Positions 8,500 through 64,000 of a DNA stretch of 64,000 nucleotides are shown here, piece after piece. Below the pieces are notes generated by a model, which saw only the letters and a program-made list of their open reading frames with translations, ran no database searches and had not been told where the DNA came from. This DNA is from Alloactinosynnema sp. L-07 (GTDB taxonomy: Bacteria > Actinomycetota > Actinomycetes > Mycobacteriales > Pseudonocardiaceae): NCBI RefSeq assembly GCF_900070365.1, contig NZ_LN850107.1, forward strand, positions 806,001-870,000, given 5' to 3'. Each line of letters opens with the position of its first letter. The stretch's first letter is position 1. The translations under genes were made by a program, and so were the position numbers.

Positions 8500-9927
8500 A
8501 TGACCAACACTCCAGCGGCCGCGCGGACCGACTCCGGCGGCGCGATCTCCGACTTCGGCATCGACACCACCACCCAGTCCACGGGTGAGGCGGTGCGTGA
8601 CTTCTTCGCCCGCCTGCGTGGCGGCGACCTCGGCTCGATGCCCGCCGTGCTCGGCCTGGCCGCGCTCGTCGTCTACTTCTGGACCCAGTCCGAGAACTTC
8701 CTGACCCTGGACAACACCGCGAACCTGATCGCCCAGGGCGCGGGCAAGATGATCATCGCCATGGGTTTGGTCTTCGTCCTGCTGCTCGGCGAGATCGACC
8801 TGTCGGCCGGTACCGCGTCGGGTGTGTGCGCCGCGGTGATGGCGATGCACTACGTGCGCTCCGGGAACCTGTTGGGCGGCATGGGTTCCACGGTGTTCTA
8901 CGTCTTCGTCGGCGGCATGGTCGTCGCCGCGCTGCTCGCGGTGTTCATGCGGATCTGGGCGGGCGCGGTCCTGGCCATGGTCGCGGTCACGATCGCGATG
9001 ATCGGCGCGGCGCCGAACCCGTGGATCGAGATGCTGCTCGCCCTGTGCGTCGGCACCGCGATCGGTGTGATCACCGGGTTTCTGGTGTCGAAGATCGGCA
9101 TGCCGTCGTTCGTGGTGACCCTGGCACTGTTCATCACCTGGCAGGGCGTGATCCTGCAGTTCATCGGCCAGGGCGGGGTACTCGGCATCGGCACCCAGCC
9201 GGTGCTGTTCAACGTCGCCAACGGCAACCTGTCGGTGCTGGGCAGCTGGATCCTGTTCGCGGTGATCGCCGTCGGCTATGGGGGCGTGGTGCTCGGCGAG
9301 CACTTCATCCGGCTGAGCAAGGGGCTGGTGACCGCGCCGACGCCGATCGTGCTGGCCAAGGTGGCCGGGATCACCGTGCTCGCCGCGCTGGCCACCTTCG
9401 CGCTGACGGTCAACCGGTCGCCCAACGACTTCGTGGTGATCCAAGGCGTGCCGTACGTGGTCCCGATCGTCCTGGTCCTGCTGGTCGCGGGCACCTACGT
9501 GCTCAACCGGACCCGCTACGGCCGCCACATCTACGCCGTCGGCGGCAACGCCGAGGCGGCCCGCCGTGCGGGCATCAACGTGCCCAAGATCCGGGCCAGC
9601 GTGTTCATCGTCTGCTCGTCGGTGGCCGCGATCGGTGCCATCGTCTACTCCTCGAAGGTAGGGTCGGTCGACCCCCAAGCGGGTGGTCTCAATACGCTGC
9701 TGTTCGCCGTGGGCGCGGCGGTGATCGGTGGGACGTCGCTGTTCGGCGGTCGGGGCAAGGTCATCCACGCGGTGATCGGCGGGCTGGTGCTCGCCGTGGT
9801 GGAGAACGGTCTCGGCCTGCTGCAGCAACCCGCCGCGGTGGTCAACATCGTCACCGGGCTGGTTCTCCTGCTGGCCGCGACGGTCGACGCGCTGTCCCGC
9901 AGGCGGGCGGCGGTGGCGGGCAGGTAG
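8500..9927 (+). CDS. xylH: Sugar ABC transporter permease (xylose type)
   Basis: A 475-residue membrane permease of the BPD_transp_2 family that forms the sugar channel of the importer. After a soluble leader of about 45 residues there are at least ten hydrophobic segments. The motifs GLVFVLLLGEIDLSAGT and GTSLFGGRGK in the C-terminal part are typical of ribose/xylose-class permeases, and the loop NRTRYGRHIYAVGGNAEAARRAGI matches the conserved cytoplasmic coupling region. It starts 8 bases after the ATPase stop and ends 10 bases before the ROK gene, so all four genes are one transcription unit. At 475 residues it is longer than E. coli XylH (about 390), owing to the leader and central loops. 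Confidence 0.92.
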   Translation: MTNTPAAARTDSGGAISDFGIDTTTQSTGEAVRDFFARLRGGDLGSMPAVLGLAALVVYFWTQSENFLTLDNTANLIAQGAGKMIIAMGLVFVLLLGEIDLSAGTASGVCAAVMAMHYVRSGNLLGGMGSTVFYVFVGGMVVAALLAVFMRIWAGAVLAMVAVTIAMIGAAPNPWIEMLLALCVGTAIGVITGFLVSKIGMPSFVVTLALFITWQGVILQFIGQGGVLGIGTQPVLFNVANGNLSVLGSWILFAVIAVGYGGVVLGEHFIRLSKGLVTAPTPIVLAKVAGITVLAALATFALTVNRSPNDFVVIQGVPYVVPIVLVLLVAGTYVLNRTRYGRHIYAVGGNAEAARRAGINVPKIRASVFIVCSSVAAIGAIVYSSKVGSVDPQAGGLNTLLFAVGAAVIGGTSLFGGRGKVIHAVIGGLVLAVVENGLGLLQQPAAVVNIVTGLVLLLAATVDALSRRRAAVAGR

Positions 9928-9937
9928 GGGAGGGCTG

Positions 9938-11098
9938 GTGAGCACACCGACGGCGGGCGCGCGGCCCGACGAGGTGCGCAGGCACAACCGCACCGCTCTG
10001 CTGCGCCGCCTGCACGTCGACGGGCCGAGCACCCGGGCCGAGCTGGCCACGGAACTGGGCCTCAACCGCAGCACGATCAAGGCGCTGGTCGACGGCCTGG
10101 CCGAGTCGGGGATCGTGCAGGAACGAGTGCCGCGGGCGCGGTCGGGGGCGGGCAGGCCCTCGCTGCTGGTGCTGCCGCAGCCGCAGGCCGCGGTGGTGCT
10201 CGCCGTCGACATCCGGGTCGAGCAGGTCGCCATCGCGCTGGTCGGGCTCGGCGGGGAGATGCTGGGCCGCAACCGGTGGAACCTGCACGGCCGCACCCGC
10301 GAACCCGACGAGGTGATCACCCACATCGTCGAGTCGACGAGGGTGCTGGCCGAGGAGTTGGACGTGAAGACCTTCGGTGTCGGCGTCTCGGTGCCCGGCG
10401 TGGTCCGCCGGTCCGACGGCTTCGTGCACGAGGCGCCCAACCTGCGCTGGCGCGACGTGCCGCTGGGCGACCGCCTCGGTGCCACGCTGGGTGTGCCGAT
10501 CCGGGTCGGCAACGACGCCGAGATCGGCGCCCTGGCCGAGCACCTGCGCGGCGCGGCGCGGGGTTCCGAGGACGTCGTCTATGTCTCCGCCGACATCGGT
10601 GTCGGCGCGGGCGTGATCTCCGACGGCGCGGCGCTGCGGGGGACCGGCGGATACATCGGCGAACTCGGCCACATGGTGGTCAACCCGGCCGGGCGCGACT
10701 GCCACTGCGGCAGCCGCGGGTGCTGGGAGACCGAGGTGGGCGAGCTGGCCATGTGCCGCGCGCTGTCGCTGCCCGAGGGTTCTCCGCGCGGGGCCGTGGT
10801 GGCCGAATTGCGGGCACTGCGGCCAGGCGACGACACGCTTGCCGAGTTCCGGCGGTGGCTCACCATCGGCGTGATCAACATCGTCAACGCGTTCAGCCCG
10901 GAGCTGGTCGTGCTGGGCGACCTGTTCACCGCGTTGCCCCGAGACTTGGTCGACGCAGTCGGCTTGGAGGTGGGCAAGCGCAGCCTGGTGAGCCGCGCCA
11001 TCGGCGGTACCCGCATCCTCCCGTCCACCCTCGGCGCGGACGGGAAACTGATCGGGGCCGCGGAACTGGCCTTCGAGCCGGTCCTGGGCACCGTCTGA
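9938..11098 (+). CDS. ROK family transcriptional regulator (XylR-like)
   Basis: A 386-residue repressor combining an N-terminal winged helix-turn-helix (about residues 15-70, with TRAELATELGLNRSTIKALVDGL) and a ROK sugar-kinase fold. The zinc motif CHCGSRGCWE, typical of ROK repressors, is at about 248-258. As last gene of the transporter operon it probably binds the ATGTTGTG inverted repeat upstream of xylF and releases it when a sugar is bound; this is inferred. The GTG at 9938 is preceded by GGGGAGGG. It could instead respond to another aldose, since only the binding protein family argues for xylose. Confidence 0.88.
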   Translation: MSTPTAGARPDEVRRHNRTALLRRLHVDGPSTRAELATELGLNRSTIKALVDGLAESGIVQERVPRARSGAGRPSLLVLPQPQAAVVLAVDIRVEQVAIALVGLGGEMLGRNRWNLHGRTREPDEVITHIVESTRVLAEELDVKTFGVGVSVPGVVRRSDGFVHEAPNLRWRDVPLGDRLGATLGVPIRVGNDAEIGALAEHLRGAARGSEDVVYVSADIGVGAGVISDGAALRGTGGYIGELGHMVVNPAGRDCHCGSRGCWETEVGELAMCRALSLPEGSPRGAVVAELRALRPGDDTLAEFRRWLTIGVINIVNAFSPELVVLGDLFTALPRDLVDAVGLEVGKRSLVSRAIGGTRILPSTLGADGKLIGAAELAFEPVLGTV

Positions 11099-11125
11099 CG
11101 CGTCAGGTCGCCTCGGGAAAGAGAA

Positions 11126-11154
11126 CGGGCGGCACCCTTGAGGGGTGCCGCCCG
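11126..11154. terminator. Bidirectional hairpin terminator between the ROK gene and DUF7455
   Basis: CGGGCGGCACCC, a TTGA loop, then GGGTGCCGCCCG form a 12-bp stem in the 78-base gap between two convergent genes. There is no strong U-run, common for terminators in high-GC actinomycetes. Confidence 0.75.
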
Positions 11155-11176
11155 CTTGACGGATCAGGACGTGGGA

Positions 11177-11359
11177 TCAGCCCTTCTGGAGCTCGGCCGC
11201 CAGCTCGCGCAGTCGCACCTCGTGCGCGCGGGCGTGGTGGCCGCAGAACAGTAGCTCTCCTCCGGAGGGAAGTACGGCGCGAACCTGTGCGGCGGCGCCG
11301 CAGCGGTCGCACCGATCGGCAGCGGTCAGCTCGGGGCGGGTGAGCGTCGTTGTCGTCAT
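11177..11359 (-). CDS. DUF7455 family small zinc-ribbon-like protein
   Basis: A 60-residue protein with CDRCGAAAQ near residue 17 and CGHHARAH near residue 39, giving a CxxC and a CxHH pair that could bind one zinc ion. Small proteins of this type are widespread in actinobacteria and commonly sit beside the principal sigma factor gene, as here. No activity is known. The ATG at 11359 follows GGGAGAACTCCC at fair spacing. It is on the same strand as sigA but separated by about 380 bases and a terminator, so it has its own promoter. Confidence 0.8.
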   Translation of the reverse strand: MTTTTLTRPELTAADRCDRCGAAAQVRAVLPSGGELLFCGHHARAHEVRLRELAAELQKG

Positions 11360-11685
11360 GGGAGTTCTCCCTCCGTCCCGGCACCGGATGGCCCGGCGCC
11401 CTCATCGGCCGTGAACCCGGTGGCTGGTGACTCCGCCGTGTTCACGATTCCTACTCTTACAGACGCGCGAGCGAATAGCAGTGTTCCCGCGCCCACATAG
11501 CAATCAGGTAACCCTGGATTAACCCGGTCGGCCTAGCCATTCGCCCCGAAATCGACTGGGAGCAGGGCATATCGATCAACGAGTCCATGGTCAAAACGCC
11601 CGGTCGCTGCCCCTTGTTCACCACGGGCGAACACGTCCACGACTCGGGAACGTGACGCCTGCCACATCCGATCGTCGCTCTGTGT
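11360..11685. other. Gene-free stretch between DUF7455 and sigA
   Basis: No convincing coding frame. The stretch should hold the promoter of the DUF7455 gene on the minus strand and the 3' end of the sigA transcript. It is less GC-rich than its neighbours around 11450-11530. I see no tRNA or obvious structured RNA. Confidence 0.5.
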
Positions 11686-11727
11686 AAAGAAAGACGCCGC
11701 CCGCGCCACGAAGGCACGAGCGGCGTC
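11686..11727 (-). terminator. Intrinsic terminator of sigA
   Basis: On the minus strand GACGCCGC and GCGGCGTC pair as an 8-bp outer stem, with further GC pairing inside, followed by TTTCTTT. It lies 15 bases past the sigA stop. Confidence 0.75.
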
Positions 11728-11741
11728 GTAAATCCCGTGGC

Positions 11742-13061
<1,320 letters not shown>

Positions 13062-59534: not shown

Positions 59535-60236
59535 ATGGACGGTATGGCCCGCCTGAACTACAACGAACTCAACGACACCATCCGCTACACCATGTGGTCG
59601 GTGTTCCGGATCGAGCCCGGCCGCCTGCCGGAGGACCGCGGCCCGGCCGCGACCGAGGCGAGCGACTACCTCGACGCCCTGTCGGGCAAGGGAGTCGAGG
59701 TGCGCGGGGTCTACGACGTCGCGGGCCTGCGCGCCGACGCCGACTATATGATCTGGTGGCACGCCGAGGAGATCGAGCAGGTCCAGGCCGCCTACACCGG
59801 CTTCCGCCGCACCGCCGTCGGCCGCGCGTCGACCCCGGTCTGGAGCCAGGTCGCGCTGCACCGGCCCGCCGAGTTCAACCGCAGCCACATCCCCGCGTTC
59901 CTCGCCGGGGAGGAGCCGCGCAAGTACGTCTGCGTTTACCCGTTCGTGCGCTCGTACGACTGGTACCTGCTGCCCGACGACCAGCGGCGCAAGATGCTCG
60001 CCGATCACGGTATGGCCGCCCGCGACTACCCGGACGTGCGCGCCAACACCGTCGCCTCGTTCGCCCTGGGCGACTACGAGTGGATGCTCGCTTTCGAGGC
60101 CGACGAACTGCACCGGATCGTCGACCTGATGCACCACATGCGCAAGACCGAGGCCCGCCTGCACGTGCGTGAGGAGATCCCGTTCTACACGGGCACCCGC
60201 GTCCCGGCCGCCGAACTCGTCGCCAACCTGCCTTGA
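59535..60236 (+). CDS. hemQ: Coproheme decarboxylase (HemQ/ChdC, chlorite dismutase family)
   Basis: A 233-residue member of the chlorite dismutase superfamily, which makes haem b from coproheme by decarboxylating two propionates. It begins [21 protein letters not shown], has the catalytic-tyrosine region [17 protein letters not shown] near 135-150, and the proximal haem ligand in [15 protein letters not shown]. The ATG at 59535 or at 59544 may be used. With hemE and hemY it shows that the organism uses the coproporphyrin-dependent route. Confidence 0.95.
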
Positions 60237-60661
60237 CCTACGTCCCGGGCCCGTACCGGGTCGCCGACGCCGCCACCTGGTGTGTCGAACAGGCGACTTT
60301 GGCCGCGGCGGAACTGCTGCGGGCCAGGGGGACGGACCCCGGCCCGGTGTCGGTCGACCCGGCCCACGCGATGGCGGCGTTCCGCAGCGAACGCCACTTG
60401 CTGATCGACGGGGAGTCGACAGGGGACCTGTGGTCGCCGCTGTCGGGGGACTACAAGGCCGCCGACGGCTGGGTGCGGCTGCACTGCAACTACCCACACC
60501 ACGAAGCCGCCGCACTCACGGCCATCGCCAATCTCCCCGCCACCCCACGCCACGAGTTTCTAGCCGGCCCGGACGATGAGGACGCTGTAGCTGTTGCCCC
60601 GATTGAGTCTGTGCGTGTTGAACTTGCCGCGCCAAGCCACGGCGAGCGGGCGCCTGGCTAG
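60233..60661 (+). pseudogene. Truncated CoA-transferase (CaiB/BaiF-like) N-terminal fragment
   Basis: A 142-residue frame coupled to hemQ (TTGA overlap). Up to about residue 108 it resembles the N-terminus of actinobacterial CaiB/BaiF CoA-transferases: VDPAHAMAAFRSERHLLIDG, SPLSGDYKAADGWVRLHCNYPHHEAAAL. Full-length members exceed 400 residues and carry the catalytic Asp later. After RHEFLAGPDD the similarity stops and the frame ends in an unlike tail. It is probably a deletion remnant; a short stand-alone function cannot be excluded. The start TTG is weak. Confidence 0.65.
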
Positions 60662-60663
60662 TG

Positions 60664-61320
60664 CTAGATCAGGCGGCTGGTGAAGCCCGCGTCGGCGAGC
60701 CGCTGGTAGGCGGCGTGCACTTGCTCGGGCACGTCCTGCTCGATGGCGAAGCCGAGGCGGGCGTACTCGGTGATGCGCTGGGTGTCGCCGACGAGCATGT
60801 TGATGACGCGGTCGACGTCGCCGATCGAGCCGATGTAATCGTCGAGAGGCAGCGGCCGTGATGAGCAGATGACCTCGACTTCGGGCCAGACCTTGCGGCA
60901 GGTCGCGTAGGCGCGTCGCTGTTGGTAGGGCCGGGAGATCAGCATGACGGAGTCCGGGTGGATGCCCGCGTCGGCGAGGACGGCGCGGGTGTTGGTGAGG
61001 TTCTGGCTGGTGTTGGTCGCCTTGGTCTCGATGAGGATCGCGTCGGCGGGGACGCCGAGTTCGATGGCGTGCTCGCGGTAGTGGACGGCTTCGCCGCGGG
61101 GGAAGCGTTCGATGGTGGTGGGGGCGTTGGCGCCGGTGAACACGATCCGCTCGAACAGGCCCTGCTGGTAGAGCTGCGCGGTGTGGATGGCGACGCCGAG
61201 GTCGTGGGAGCCCAGGCCGATGCCGAGATCGCAGCGGCGAGTCTGGTGGCCCATGTCGTGGTAGGCCCACAGGGTCTCGACGTCGTTCCGCAGTTGGGGC
61301 AGCAGTTCGGTGGTAGCCAT
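60664..61320 (-). CDS. YdcF family protein (DUF218)
   Basis: A 218-residue cytosolic protein of the YdcF/ElyC/SanA group. Typical parts are CDLGIGLGSHDLGVAIHTAQLY, IVFTGANAPTTIERFPRGEA, ETKATNTSQNLTNTRAVL and MLISRPYQQRRAYATCRKVWP. YdcF binds a nucleotide-like ligand in E. coli; other members act in envelope metabolism; no activity is assured here. The ATG at 61320 is preferred over the TTG at 61329. It lies 11 bases after the XRE gene on the same strand and is probably in its operon. Confidence 0.85.
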   Translation of the reverse strand: MATTELLPQLRNDVETLWAYHDMGHQTRRCDLGIGLGSHDLGVAIHTAQLYQQGLFERIVFTGANAPTTIERFPRGEAVHYREHAIELGVPADAILIETKATNTSQNLTNTRAVLADAGIHPDSVMLISRPYQQRRAYATCRKVWPEVEVICSSRPLPLDDYIGSIGDVDRVINMLVGDTQRITEYARLGFAIEQDVPEQVHAAYQRLADAGFTSRLI

Positions 61321-61331
61321 GACCGGCAAGG

Positions 61332-62567
61332 TTACGGCTGGCGAGGGTCGGTGCCGTGTACGCCCATCCGGTGCGCGAGTTCGATCGCCCGGTCCGCCGG
61401 TCGAGGGTGGCGGATCATCTCGCGGACCAGCACGCGGGAGAGCCGGTGGTAGCGGACCTGCTCAGGCGCGTACTGCTCGGCGCCGAGGAGCAGCCCGAGG
61501 GCGTCGTCGGCGCGGTTCCAGCGCACGAACGCCCGCGCGGTCTCGATGGCATGTCGGACGCGGCGCTCGACAGGTAGTGCCCGTGTGTCGACGCGGGGGC
61601 CGAGGTCGACGGCGATCTGGACGTCGCCGAGCTCCATCGCGGCGGTGACGCGGTGGATGTTGACGTTGGTGGGGCCGAACGCCGTCCACAGGTGGTTGGC
61701 GTCGTGCCCGATCCGGGTGGCGGCAATGTCCGCCTCGGACAGGAAGGTCGTGGTGTCGGAGCGGTCCTCGCGCCGCGATGAGGCGACCGCGCCGACCAGG
61801 TGCAGCATCCCGTAGACCGACAGGTACTCGGGGGTGGCGTCGCCGAGGCCGGGTTCGAGGTGTTCGGCGGCGGCGCGGATGAGCGCGACGGCCTGCTCGA
61901 ACTCTCCGATGGAGACCAGTGCGTGGGCGACGGAGCGGTAGAGGGAGGCGATCATCAGGTTGTCGCCGCTGGTGTTGGCGGCGGACAGGCCGCGGGTGGC
62001 GGAGATCGCGGCGAGGTCGGCCTCGCCGAGCTTGGTGAGGAACGCGGTGGCGACCTGGTGGGCGCTGGCGGCCAGCGCGTGGGCGCTCAAGCCGTCGTCG
62101 CTGCTGGTTCCGTACTGCTGGCAGGCGGCCTGAACGTCGGTGATCAGCAACGGGAGCCGCTGGGTGAGCCGGGCGTAGCGGGAGTTCTGGTAGTCGTCCC
62201 ACTGGGCGGCGATCTCGGCCGCGAGGACGTCCAGCCGGGCCGGTTCGCCTTCGCGCGGGCCGGTGAGGAACTGGCGGTGGTCCATCAGCGCGACCCGCAG
62301 CGCGGGCACGGTTCGGCGGCCTGACTCATCGGCCCAGGCCAGGAGGACAGGTTCGCCGATCAGGTCGCCAAGGGAGATGTCCAGCGCGGCGGACAGTCGG
62401 CGCAGCACGGAGAGACGGTCGACGGGGAGCACGTCGTGCTCGACCTTGCGCAGCCAGTCCTCGGTGCGCGCGACCAGCCCGGCCAGCACGGCCTGGGTCA
62501 GCCCGCGTCGCTGCCGGTAGAACGCGACGCGTTCGCCGATGGTCATGTCGTCGGTCATCCCTCGCAT
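61332..62567 (-). CDS. XRE family regulator with C-terminal helical repeat domain
   Basis: A 411-residue regulator. The helix-turn-helix is at about residues 10-65 (RVAFYRQRRGLTQAVLAGLV and ARTEDWLRKVEHDVLPVD). From about residue 95 to the end it is Ala/Leu-rich and helical, with repeated units such as LGEADLAAISATRGLSAA and GEFEQAVALIRAAAEH, as in TPR-containing peptide-sensing or developmental regulators. The ATG at 62567 follows GGAAGG; ATGs at 62558 and 62546 are close alternatives. It is divergent from the small-gene operon at 62728, with which it probably forms one module. Confidence 0.85.
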   Translation of the reverse strand: MRGMTDDMTIGERVAFYRQRRGLTQAVLAGLVARTEDWLRKVEHDVLPVDRLSVLRRLSAALDISLGDLIGEPVLLAWADESGRRTVPALRVALMDHRQFLTGPREGEPARLDVLAAEIAAQWDDYQNSRYARLTQRLPLLITDVQAACQQYGTSSDDGLSAHALAASAHQVATAFLTKLGEADLAAISATRGLSAANTSGDNLMIASLYRSVAHALVSIGEFEQAVALIRAAAEHLEPGLGDATPEYLSVYGMLHLVGAVASSRREDRSDTTTFLSEADIAATRIGHDANHLWTAFGPTNVNIHRVTAAMELGDVQIAVDLGPRVDTRALPVERRVRHAIETARAFVRWNRADDALGLLLGAEQYAPEQVRYHRLSRVLVREMIRHPRPADRAIELAHRMGVHGTDPRQP

Positions 62568-62664
62568 GAGGTTCAACCTTCCAGCTCCGGCCGCGACGAA
62601 CCCAGAGAAATCCTCCCGGTTCACCACATTCGCCGCACCTAGCGTCCTGAATCAAGCACTCCCC

Positions 62665-62681
62665 GTGACATAGGACGTCAC
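62665..62681. promoter_or_regulatory. Inverted repeat in the divergent region of the XRE/small-gene module
   Basis: GTGAC, seven bases, GTCAC. It lies between the XRE start and the first small gene, where an autoregulatory operator would be expected. The arms are only five bases, so the call is tentative. Confidence 0.4.
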
Positions 62682-62727
62682 GAGGAGATCGTCCCACGCA
62701 GGCGTGTGAGCGAACTGGGGAGCGACC

Positions 62728-62838
62728 ATGCCCATGGTCAAGCGGACGCATGAGATATCAGCACTGGCTCCTGCCGTGTCGGGCGTACCCCGACCGGTCG
62801 GCACGGCAGGTTTCAACCCTGGCCGGGGCCGGTCATGA
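62728..62838 (+). CDS. 36-residue small protein, first gene of the overlapping operon
   Basis: ATG at 62728 is preceded by GGGGAG at five bases, one of the best ribosome sites in the window. It encodes a basic, flexible peptide starting MPMVKRTHEISALAP and ending in GFNPGRGRS. Its stop overlaps the next ATG by four bases (ATGA), the same coupling as between all genes that follow. There is no hydrophobic segment and no cysteine. It may be a leader peptide for translational coupling, or a bioactive or precursor peptide; neither can be shown here. Confidence 0.6.
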   Translation: MPMVKRTHEISALAPAVSGVPRPVGTAGFNPGRGRS

Positions 62839-63068
62839 CCGGGTGGGGGCTGGTCCTGGCGGTGGCGGTGATCGTCGGCTGCGCGGTCGCGCCGGTGCTG
62901 GTCGGGTGGGCGATCAACGTCTGGTGCACCCGCCGCAGGCTGGCGCGTTGCCGGGCGGCGGACCTGCGCTGCCGAGTGGACGAGATCCGTGACCGCAACC
63001 GGCGAGCGCTGCCCGGCCCGGCGGAGCCCTACCGGCTGCGGCCAGTCCCTGGCCGGGTCGCGTCGTGA
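62835..63068 (+). CDS. Small single-span membrane protein
   Basis: A 77-residue protein with one long hydrophobic segment at residues 4-31 (GLVLAVAVIVGCAVAPVLVG onward) and a basic C-terminal half containing CTRRRLARCRAADLRCRVDE. I do not recognise it. It overlaps its neighbours by four bases on each side (ATGA before, GTGA after). The positive-inside rule puts the basic tail in the cytoplasm. Confidence 0.7.
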   Translation: MTGWGLVLAVAVIVGCAVAPVLVGWAINVWCTRRRLARCRAADLRCRVDEIRDRNRRALPGPAEPYRLRPVPGRVAS

Positions 63069-63322
63069 GGGCCGTCCGCGCGGCCCGGCGGTGGCGCCCG
63101 CGCTGGTGGCGGCACCCGGCCCAGCCGGTCGCGGTGCCGGAACCGGACACCGAGCTGATCTTCCTCGACCAGCCCACCGTGCGGTTCCCGCGTCGTTCGC
63201 ATTCGCCCGTCCAGGCCGGGCTCCGGGTCGCCCCCTACGCCTCCGTCGGCTGGCGCACCCAGCCGATCCTCCGCGTCCCCGCGTCCTCCCGGGACCCGCG
63301 ATCGAACAGGACACCTCGCTGA
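63065..63322 (+). CDS. Small basic hypothetical protein
   Basis: An 85-residue, Arg- and Pro-rich protein that begins with a Trp/Arg segment (RAARRWRPRWWRHP), followed by EPDTELIFLDQPTVRFP. No family recognised. The GTG start at 63065 lies in the previous stop, and its own stop overlaps the next ATG by one base. The tryptophan-arginine start could bind membrane or nucleic acid; this is a guess from composition. Confidence 0.6.
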   Translation: MRAVRAARRWRPRWWRHPAQPVAVPEPDTELIFLDQPTVRFPRRSHSPVQAGLRVAPYASVGWRTQPILRVPASSRDPRSNRTPR

Positions 63323-63489
63323 TGAGTGCTCGACGAGCGGCGACCCGGCCGCGTGTGGCCCGTCCGGCGTTGACGTTCCCGGTTGGCAACCACTGTTGCC
63401 ACCAGTACCGGATCGTCTGCGGCTACTACGAATGCGTGCACGGGCACGTGCTCAAGGTCGGCTATCCCGGAAGGGGTGGGCGACGGTGA
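63322..63489 (+). CDS. Small cysteine/histidine-rich protein
   Basis: A 55-residue protein with a basic N-terminus (MSARRAATRPRVARP) and a Cys/His cluster: GNHCCHQYRIVCGYYECVHGH. Four cysteines and four histidines lie within 20 residues, suited to zinc or another metal. No known zinc-finger spacing matches exactly. It is coupled at both ends, by one base before and four bases after. Confidence 0.6.
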   Translation: MSARRAATRPRVARPALTFPVGNHCCHQYRIVCGYYECVHGHVLKVGYPGRGGRR

Positions 63490-63779
63490 GCCTGGACTAC
63501 ACCCCTGGCCGGTACACAGCGCTGCGGCTGGCGGCCCGTGAGCTGATCGTCTCCGACCGGACGGTGCTGCGGCGCCGCGACCACGTCGACCTGCCACCGG
63601 AGGTGTTCGCGGCGCTGCTCGTCCTCGCCCGCGACGGCTATCTCCAGCATCAGTTGCCTAAGCCGGGCAGCGACTTGGCGGTGCGGCCGGTCGGCTTGAG
63701 CCTGCCCGGGACGCGGTTGCTGCTCTCGTTCAACACCGAACACGTCCGTCGTGGACAGCAAGCCGGTGACCTGCGATGA
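63486..63779 (+). CDS. Small hypothetical protein
   Basis: A 97-residue soluble protein. RYTALRLAARELIVSDRTVLRRRDHVDL and PPEVFAALLVLARDGYLQHQL suggest helices, perhaps a small winged-helix-like fold, followed by strands ending LSLPGTRLLLSFN. No family recognised. GTG start in the preceding stop (GTGA) and ATGA overlap with the following gene. Confidence 0.6.
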   Translation: MSLDYTPGRYTALRLAARELIVSDRTVLRRRDHVDLPPEVFAALLVLARDGYLQHQLPKPGSDLAVRPVGLSLPGTRLLLSFNTEHVRRGQQAGDLR

Positions 63780-64000
63780 CCAGCGCGATCGAGCAGCCGG
63801 TGTGGTGGGGCACCAACCGGGGGAACAGCACCTTCTACGCCGGCCGCGCGCACGTCGTGTGGCCAGGCAGCGGCCGGGCCGGGCTGTGCGGGCTGCCAGT
63901 GGACGACCTGTGGGAGCTGCGGCCGTCGGTGCCGGAGCTGCTGTGCCCGGACTGCTGCCTGCTGGCCATGGCGGCACTGTTCCCCGCCTTCCCCACCGAC
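63776..64000 (+). CDS. Cysteine-rich zinc-finger-like protein, partial (cut by window end)
   Basis: The first 75 residues of a gene that runs past the window. It contains FYAGRAHVVWPGSG, LCGLPVDDLWEL and LLCPDCC. The pattern of a His, one Cys and a later CPDC pair resembles the small zinc-finger proteins that accompany XRE regulators in Pseudonocardiaceae, as I recall them. The ATG at 63776 overlaps the upstream stop by four bases. It is the sixth gene of the overlapping series. Confidence 0.6.
   Translation, partial: MTSAIEQPVWWGTNRGNSTFYAGRAHVVWPGSGRAGLCGLPVDDLWELRPSVPELLCPDCCLLAMAALFPAFPTD

Follow-up and report, generated by a model that had tools for sequence, protein, structure and literature searches.

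The window, the whole 64,000-nucleotide stretch analyzed here, corresponds to positions 806001–870000 of the single-contig 7.4 Mb genome of Alloactinosynnema sp. L-07 (G000:C1). Near its end, an XRE-type regulator gene diverges from a tight row of six very small frames (g1 to g6). On balance, these genes probably form the leading part of an island that was acquired horizontally, is controlled by the XRE protein, and serves the synthesis of a ring-contracted nucleoside similar to oxetanocin or albucidin. The same genome was read past the window edge as locus L009 (window position = L009 position + 58999), in which the strand of the small frames continues into three genes, encoding an OxsB-like cobalamin radical-SAM enzyme, an aldo/keto reductase, and a CYTH enzyme (Table 1). 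An original prediction, made from the window sequence alone, had described an operon of six small genes facing a dedicated regulator and had suggested a multi-component system, possibly defensive. Its observation is partly confirmed and its interpretation partly supported; the operon does not stop at six genes, since the enzyme genes follow on the same strand.

The OxsB-like enzyme and its partners

OxsB is the only sequence match of the first enzyme in the PDB at E values up to 1e-3 (E 2e-74, 254 bits, residues 22–608 of the query on 16–619). Judging from the range of this alignment, the N-terminal domain of OxsB is covered too; the similarity spans the N-terminal, cobalamin, and radical-SAM domains and the start of the C-terminal domain. 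The iron-sulphur three-cysteine motif is present, as CX3CX2C versus CX4CX2C in the aligned OxsB chain. The cobalamin-binding model PF02310 gives 31.8 bits, just under its cut-off of 32.1, and precomputed PF02310 assignments are found in most of the 120 listed out of 707 database relatives. The best NCBIfam model is BchE, at 43.5 bits, far below its cut-off.

Genome searches at E values up to 1e-60 gave OxsB-like genes in 8 of 397 genomes searched within the order, 3 of 396 within the phylum, and 5 of 394 within the class, each count including the window's own genome. With four actinobacterial plasmids and two loci met through g6 (L057 and L087), the set comprises 20 loci, which are every actinobacterial place above the search thresholds; the G520 gene, which is divided between L139 and L140, is counted once. 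Three weak non-actinobacterial plasmid matches (24–28% identity) and all others of the 707 database relatives lie outside this set.

An aldo/keto reductase (45–100% identity) is encoded within 6 kb of the OxsB-like gene in all 20 loci. In 19 of them, there is also one of two partners that handle phosphate. This second partner is a CYTH enzyme in 8 loci and an EEP phosphatase in 11; one locus (L175) has neither, and none has both. The reductase of L129 is 5.6 kb off, and the EEP match of L084 is 5.8 kb off on the other strand. Three EEP proteins checked by Pfam all match PF03372 above the cut-off. In a control of 43 other fetched loci of at least 9 kb (675,191 bases), there is no CYTH or EEP seed match and no reductase match above 38% identity. 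In a tree of the OxsB-like enzymes, built without L086, L139, L142, and L172–L175, the seven CYTH-type enzymes form one group (90/99, just under the star threshold of the program), and the branching order among the EEP-type enzymes is unresolved.

The CYTH protein of the island scores 91.3 bits with PF01928 (cut-off 23.2) and 83.5 bits with TIGR00318, the model of class IV adenylate cyclases (cut-off 57.95). According to PMC8233210, phosphatase activity is typical of CYTH proteins, and some of them cyclise nucleotides. A literal class IV cyclase making cyclic AMP is not the preferred assignment, since the CYTH gene adjoins the reductase gene in all eight loci that have it.

Proteins of about 200 residues that are alike by eye stand beside OxsB-like genes in L127 (9105–9725), L085 (7081–7695), L138 (7087–7731), L173 (9255–9851), L174 (6758–7414), and L175 (7994–8614). 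The L085 protein has no Pfam match.

Proposed pathway

In oxetanocin A synthesis, the sugar ring of deoxyadenine nucleotides is contracted by OxsB, and the remaining steps fall to the phosphohydrolase OxsA and an unassigned reductase, which is absent from the oxetanocin genes (PMC13331322; PMC7074753). The oxetanocin aldehyde is reduced by a nonspecific enzyme, according to PMC13331322. We infer the following reactions for the island. The OxsB-like enzyme would act on a deoxyadenine nucleotide and contract its sugar. The aldo/keto reductase would reduce the resulting aldehyde, a task that falls to a nonspecific host enzyme in the oxetanocin route, and the CYTH enzyme would remove the triphosphate, standing in for the HD phosphohydrolase OxsA. 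The best indirect support for this role of CYTH is that its place is taken in other loci by an unrelated phosphate-handling family.

The system of Bacillus megaterium (OxsB/OxsA) and the island have in common an OxsB-type enzyme over most of its length, and the oxetanocin route needs an aldehyde reductase and a phosphohydrolase. In contrast to it, the island has its own reductase gene and a CYTH gene in place of the HD protein; no HD match was found among the eleven island frames scanned. The pathway to albucidin (AlbB/AlsB and AlbA/AlsA) is also similar in having an OxsB-related ring-contraction enzyme in an actinomycete, whereas the island shows no second radical-SAM match among the frames scanned. 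A seed for such a second enzyme, drawn from L141 and not itself compared with AlsA, has no match in 16 actinobacterial loci, nor within 6 kb in the 20 loci.

On an Agrobacterium pusense plasmid (L141, 5761–9631), the OxsB-like gene overlaps a second radical-SAM gene (NF045502), accompanied by a NUDIX gene and no reductase match. This arrangement looks like the albucidin gene pair, outside actinobacteria.

The OxsB-like loci give named candidates for the missing steps of oxetanocin-type synthesis and clusters in which they can be tested. Among the matches listed from the open-access literature, none was seen to mention a partner of OxsB of the aldo/keto reductase, CYTH, or EEP type.

Acquisition of the island

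A 7.6 kb block of the island is 88.8% identical in Actinoalloteichus spitiensis (G061), a member of another genus, in different surroundings. This copy (L057) is the sole close relative copy used for pairwise comparison below. The island lies between two pieces of a CoA-transferase family III gene. Its flanks (left to about 1513 and right from about 9241 in L009) are only 13, 31, and 26 bases apart in L144, L148, and L153, respectively, and the joined flanks form one open frame in L148 and L153. The uninterrupted L148 protein belongs to CoA-transferase family III (PF02515, 138.3 bits). Since the block of about 7.7 kb splits a gene that is whole in relatives, the island is, judging from the compared sequences, horizontally acquired. 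The 142-residue frame listed at 60233–60661 is a hybrid of the CoA-transferase start and island sequence.

The PF06778 gene is present in all 13 genomes of the genus searched (the window's own included), and an S8 protease copy scores above threshold in 12 of them, with no protease match in G136. The two genes are 1.3–1.9 kb apart in eight genomes, 5.1 kb apart in G862, and 8.9 kb apart in the window's genome; they are unlinked in G433 and G100. This spacing, together with the adjoining flanks in relatives, indicates that the block was inserted here.

The two island ends share no repeat of 9 bases or more. Mobilisation by a transposase or integrase of its own is rejected, as none is found among the eleven island frames and terminal repeats of that length are missing. 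A phage or plasmid origin of g6 is likewise rejected, as g6 has no match in the phage and plasmid collections. A scan for sigma-70 promoters and terminators found none of either, a result that is uninformative for a GC-rich actinomycete.

The small frames

The coordinates and sizes of the frames in the original prediction are correct on re-reading. The products have 36, 77, 85, 55, and 97 residues, and the sixth frame, cut by the window edge, encodes 99 residues in the genome; the successive overlaps are 4, 4, 1, 4, and 4 bases. The one- or four-base overlap described for every junction is true here, but that of g5 and g6 is not kept in L057, where the g5 stop lies a few bases ahead of the g6 start. 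Not all six frames are equally supported as genes. Synonymous and replacement changes between the window and L057 were compared by Fisher tests, which give weak evidence as they rest on one genome pair. The g1 frame is under no detectable selection (p 0.65). In L057, g3 has 4- and 1-base deletions and lacks a start codon (selection p 0.07). The g2 frame is weak: its selection is borderline (omega 0.56, p 0.075), and among the loci compared it matched only the close copy in L057. Purifying selection is clear for g4 (p 0.0014) and g5 (p 3e-5). The pair test is not significant for g6 (p 0.42; p 0.105 for its conserved part), which is supported through its wide family. Wider families are also found for g4 and g5, and none of the three families has a significant Pfam match.

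The best AlphaFold model of g5 has a predicted local distance difference test (pLDDT) score of 86.3, and the other four range from 68 to 76. Among the 50 matches listed by Foldseek, most are PadR, MarR, and RTP proteins (probability 0.89–1.00, best E 0.012, none at E 0.001), and g5 is predicted to resemble the winged helices of PadR and MarR proteins. The g6 family comprises 92 proteins listed in a database search, a few of them from the window's genome. In 73 aligned sequences (72 of the 92 and that of the window), Cys38, Cys57, and Cys60 are invariant, and His26 is kept in at least 90%. The pLDDT of the g6 model is 86.7. The C-x11-C-x-H-x-H motif of g4 is common to all eight members found. 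Two of these are in OxsB islands (L009 and L057) and four beside FxLD precursors (L048, L058, L090, and L094), with a Pfam match bearing out the dehydratase in L048 and L090; the other two loci, L089 and L050, have no LanB and no OxsB match.

Profile searches of the window's genome gave seven g5-like and seven g6-like places, which are the same seven sites, with g5 ahead of g6. The profiles (A1 and A2) contained rows from this genome, which accounts by construction for part of the complete pairing but not for the lack of unpaired copies. The sites are the OxsB island, L010, the FxLD clusters L055 and L056, the XRE/DUF397 loci L053 and L054, and L052 near ferrochelatase. The neighbourhoods of 44 g6 loci were also compared; these are not deduplicated, with at least one repeat (L091 is L135). 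An XRE-type gene lies within 5 kb in 37 of the 44, so that the pairing of a regulator with a small gene does recur. The density of XRE-type genes is 48 of 256 half-bins at 0–3 kb versus 4 of 219 at 5–8 kb, and all XRE counts rest on seeds partly drawn from the same loci. Other genes found within 5 kb are g5 (15 loci), DUF397 (12), g4 (6), and LanB or an FxLD methyltransferase (6, where that of L057 belongs to a separate neighbouring cluster). The strict coupling of six tiny proteins is not borne out, as only 15 of the 44 g6 loci have g5 alongside and 6 have g4, and g2 is confined to the close copy among the loci compared. Since homologues are scattered without the others, which the original prediction had itself named as its refutation, a reading as one complex fails. 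A six-protein complex is rejected because its members occur apart and g1 and g3 lack support.

The recurrence of g4, g5, and g6 beside XRE genes and FxLD lanthipeptide clusters suggests that they are probably movable regulators rather than one machine. We infer that g5, g6, and g4, as winged-helix and metal-binding candidates, would switch the operon together with the divergent XRE protein. Similar sets may act likewise beside FxLD lanthipeptide clusters, and the three families are candidate regulators for silent clusters. Nothing joining FxLD, lanthipeptide, and XRE was found in the open-access literature.

In L055 and L056 (about 2.79 and 4.39 Mb of G000:C1), the g5–g6 pair lies upstream of FxLD lanthipeptide clusters. 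The precursor and methyltransferase models TIGR04363 and TIGR04364 score above cut-off in both, and the dehydratase is found in L056. The L010 operon (8523–11977, about 3.88 Mb of G000:C1) faces another XRE gene. Its products are a protein of 402 residues that matches no family, a PF00929 exonuclease, one AAA_28 and one CxxC protein, g5, and a g6 whose sequence is divided between frames. Near ferrochelatase, in several genomes of the genus (L052, L038, L070, and L071), a long or tandem g5 (163–190 residues) is followed by g6, mostly with no XRE match within 5 kb.

Weighing of the readings

Several observations weigh against the proposed nucleoside pathway. The identity to OxsB is only about 31%, and Asn186 on the cobalt side of OxsB is replaced by Thr in all 14 sequences compared. 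The usual reductase start (L009 7284–7378) is in a different frame from the rest of the gene, which is open only from the GTG at L009 7378 and gives 323 residues versus 348–357 in five relatives. The pathway may therefore be dead in this genome, or the base calls may be wrong. Several relatives show decay, with a stop in L080, an internal loss in L086, and two frames in L175, and L083 is rearranged and has a Cys-to-Tyr change. Such damage suggests that the pathway is often lost, which fits a transferable, dispensable trait and weakens the claim that this strain makes the product. On the side of regulation, the predicted g6 fold matched nothing in the fold search. When 16 actinobacterial OxsB-like loci were scanned with profiles of the small genes, L009 and L057 alone had g4 and g5, and four had g6-like sequences, suggesting that the link between the small genes and the enzymes is young.

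This restricted occurrence should be noted, since it also suits a different account, to which we give an appreciable minority share: the small genes may be unconnected with the enzymes, as a wandering XRE/small-gene module that happened to land before the OxsB cassette and merely reads through into it. The absence of g4 and g5 from 14 of the 16 loci and the many unrelated genes adjoining g6 are consistent with it. However, the gap between g6 and the enzyme gene is 42 bases on the same strand, the whole block is kept at 88.8% identity in another genus, and L080, L081, L087, and L129 likewise have XRE-type genes no more than 2.4 kb from OxsB-like genes.

It is rather unlikely that one of the small proteins is the precursor of a ribosomally synthesised and post-translationally modified peptide and is methylated by the radical-SAM enzyme. 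The small frames lie directly upstream of its gene, relatives of g4–g6 adjoin FxLD lanthipeptide clusters, and the C-methyltransferase model TIGR03975 is weakly matched (24 bits, cut-off 281.85). However, the 254 bits to OxsB include the N-terminal domain, an OxsB-like gene is missing within 5 kb of g6 in most g6 loci, the prediction for g5 is a folded winged helix, and a CYTH or EEP enzyme with a reductase fits a nucleotide better.

Prokaryotic viperins make chain-terminating nucleotides on infection, and a similar anti-phage operon is improbable here: the island is compact and patchily spread with its own regulator, but the defensive role once suggested is unsupported by PADLOC, which matched none of nine island proteins and one L010 protein (a search of these proteins and not of the wider neighbourhood), and the reductase and phosphohydrolase suggest release of a nucleoside. 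The preference of OxsB for dATP, reported in PMC13331322, would suit such an operon.

Returning to the proposed nucleoside pathway, a bolder form of it is conceivable, though we are inclined to doubt it. Only two natural oxetane nucleosides are known, according to PMC13331322, and the island might be a self-contained, transfer-spread actinomycete pathway to a third family. CYTH would then be a dedicated partner of OxsB-type enzymes that removes the triphosphate or closes a cyclic nucleotide analogue, and the movable g4–g6 with the XRE protein would be an undescribed switch shared with lanthipeptide clusters.

The divergent regulator

The divergent XRE gene facing a tight operon, and the linked YdcF gene 11 bases behind it, are as originally described. 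The XRE protein matches PF13560 with 28.7 bits (cut-off 27). Its residues 104–410 align to the model of the NsdA family of TPR-like regulators (NF053720) with 42.5 bits, although this is below the cut-off of 75. Compared with L057, omega is 0.18 for XRE and 0.22 for YdcF.

Pairs of XRE and DUF397 proteins are already known as antibiotic regulators; in Streptomyces, according to PMC10364602, an XRE regulator with small partners affects antibiotic production. The island resembles them in having an XRE regulator with small partners, and DUF397 recurs near g6 as counted above. Unlike them, it shows no match to DUF5753 or to DUF397 (for the latter, none up to 5 kb from g6 in L009), and YdcF follows the XRE gene.

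Table 1. Features of the island and its left border (positions beyond 64000 are window-equivalent, read in L009)
Feature	Position	Strand	Remark
CoA-transferase family III, N-terminal piece	60233..60513	+	other piece at about 68240–69175 (L009 9241–10176)
Island, left part	60514..64000	n/a	runs on to about 68239, about 7.7 kb in total
YdcF/DUF218 protein, 218 residues	60664..61320	-	PF02698 64.5 bits, cut-off 27.6
XRE regulator, 408 residues from ATG (431 from GTG 62627)	61332..62558	-	HTH_31 and C-terminal region aligning to TPR-like model
Inverted repeat CTCCCCGTGAC-N7-GTCACGAGGAG	62659..62687	n/a	in divergent gap; candidate operator
g1, 36-codon frame, doubtful gene	62728..62838	+	start and stop kept in L057; omega 1.06
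g2, 77 residues, one apparent membrane span (by eye)	62835..63068	+	82% identical in L057
g3, 85-codon frame, unsupported as separate gene	63065..63322	+	deletions in L057
g4, 55 residues, C-x11-C-x-H-x-H motif, putative metal binder	63322..63489	+	omega 0.25
g5, 97 residues, predicted winged-helix protein	63486..63779	+	AlphaFold and Foldseek
g6, 99 residues, putative zinc protein	63776..64000, ending at 64075 (L009 4777–5076)	+	family alignment
OxsB-like cobalamin radical-SAM enzyme, 712 residues	64118–66256	+	42 bases after g6
Aldo/keto reductase, 323 residues	66377–67348	+	read in L009
CYTH enzyme, 184 residues	67329–67883	+	read in L009

The gap between the XRE gene and g1 contains an inverted repeat, which is a possible operator. 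In L057, the 3' arm of the repeat differs, yet a complementary arm is again present.

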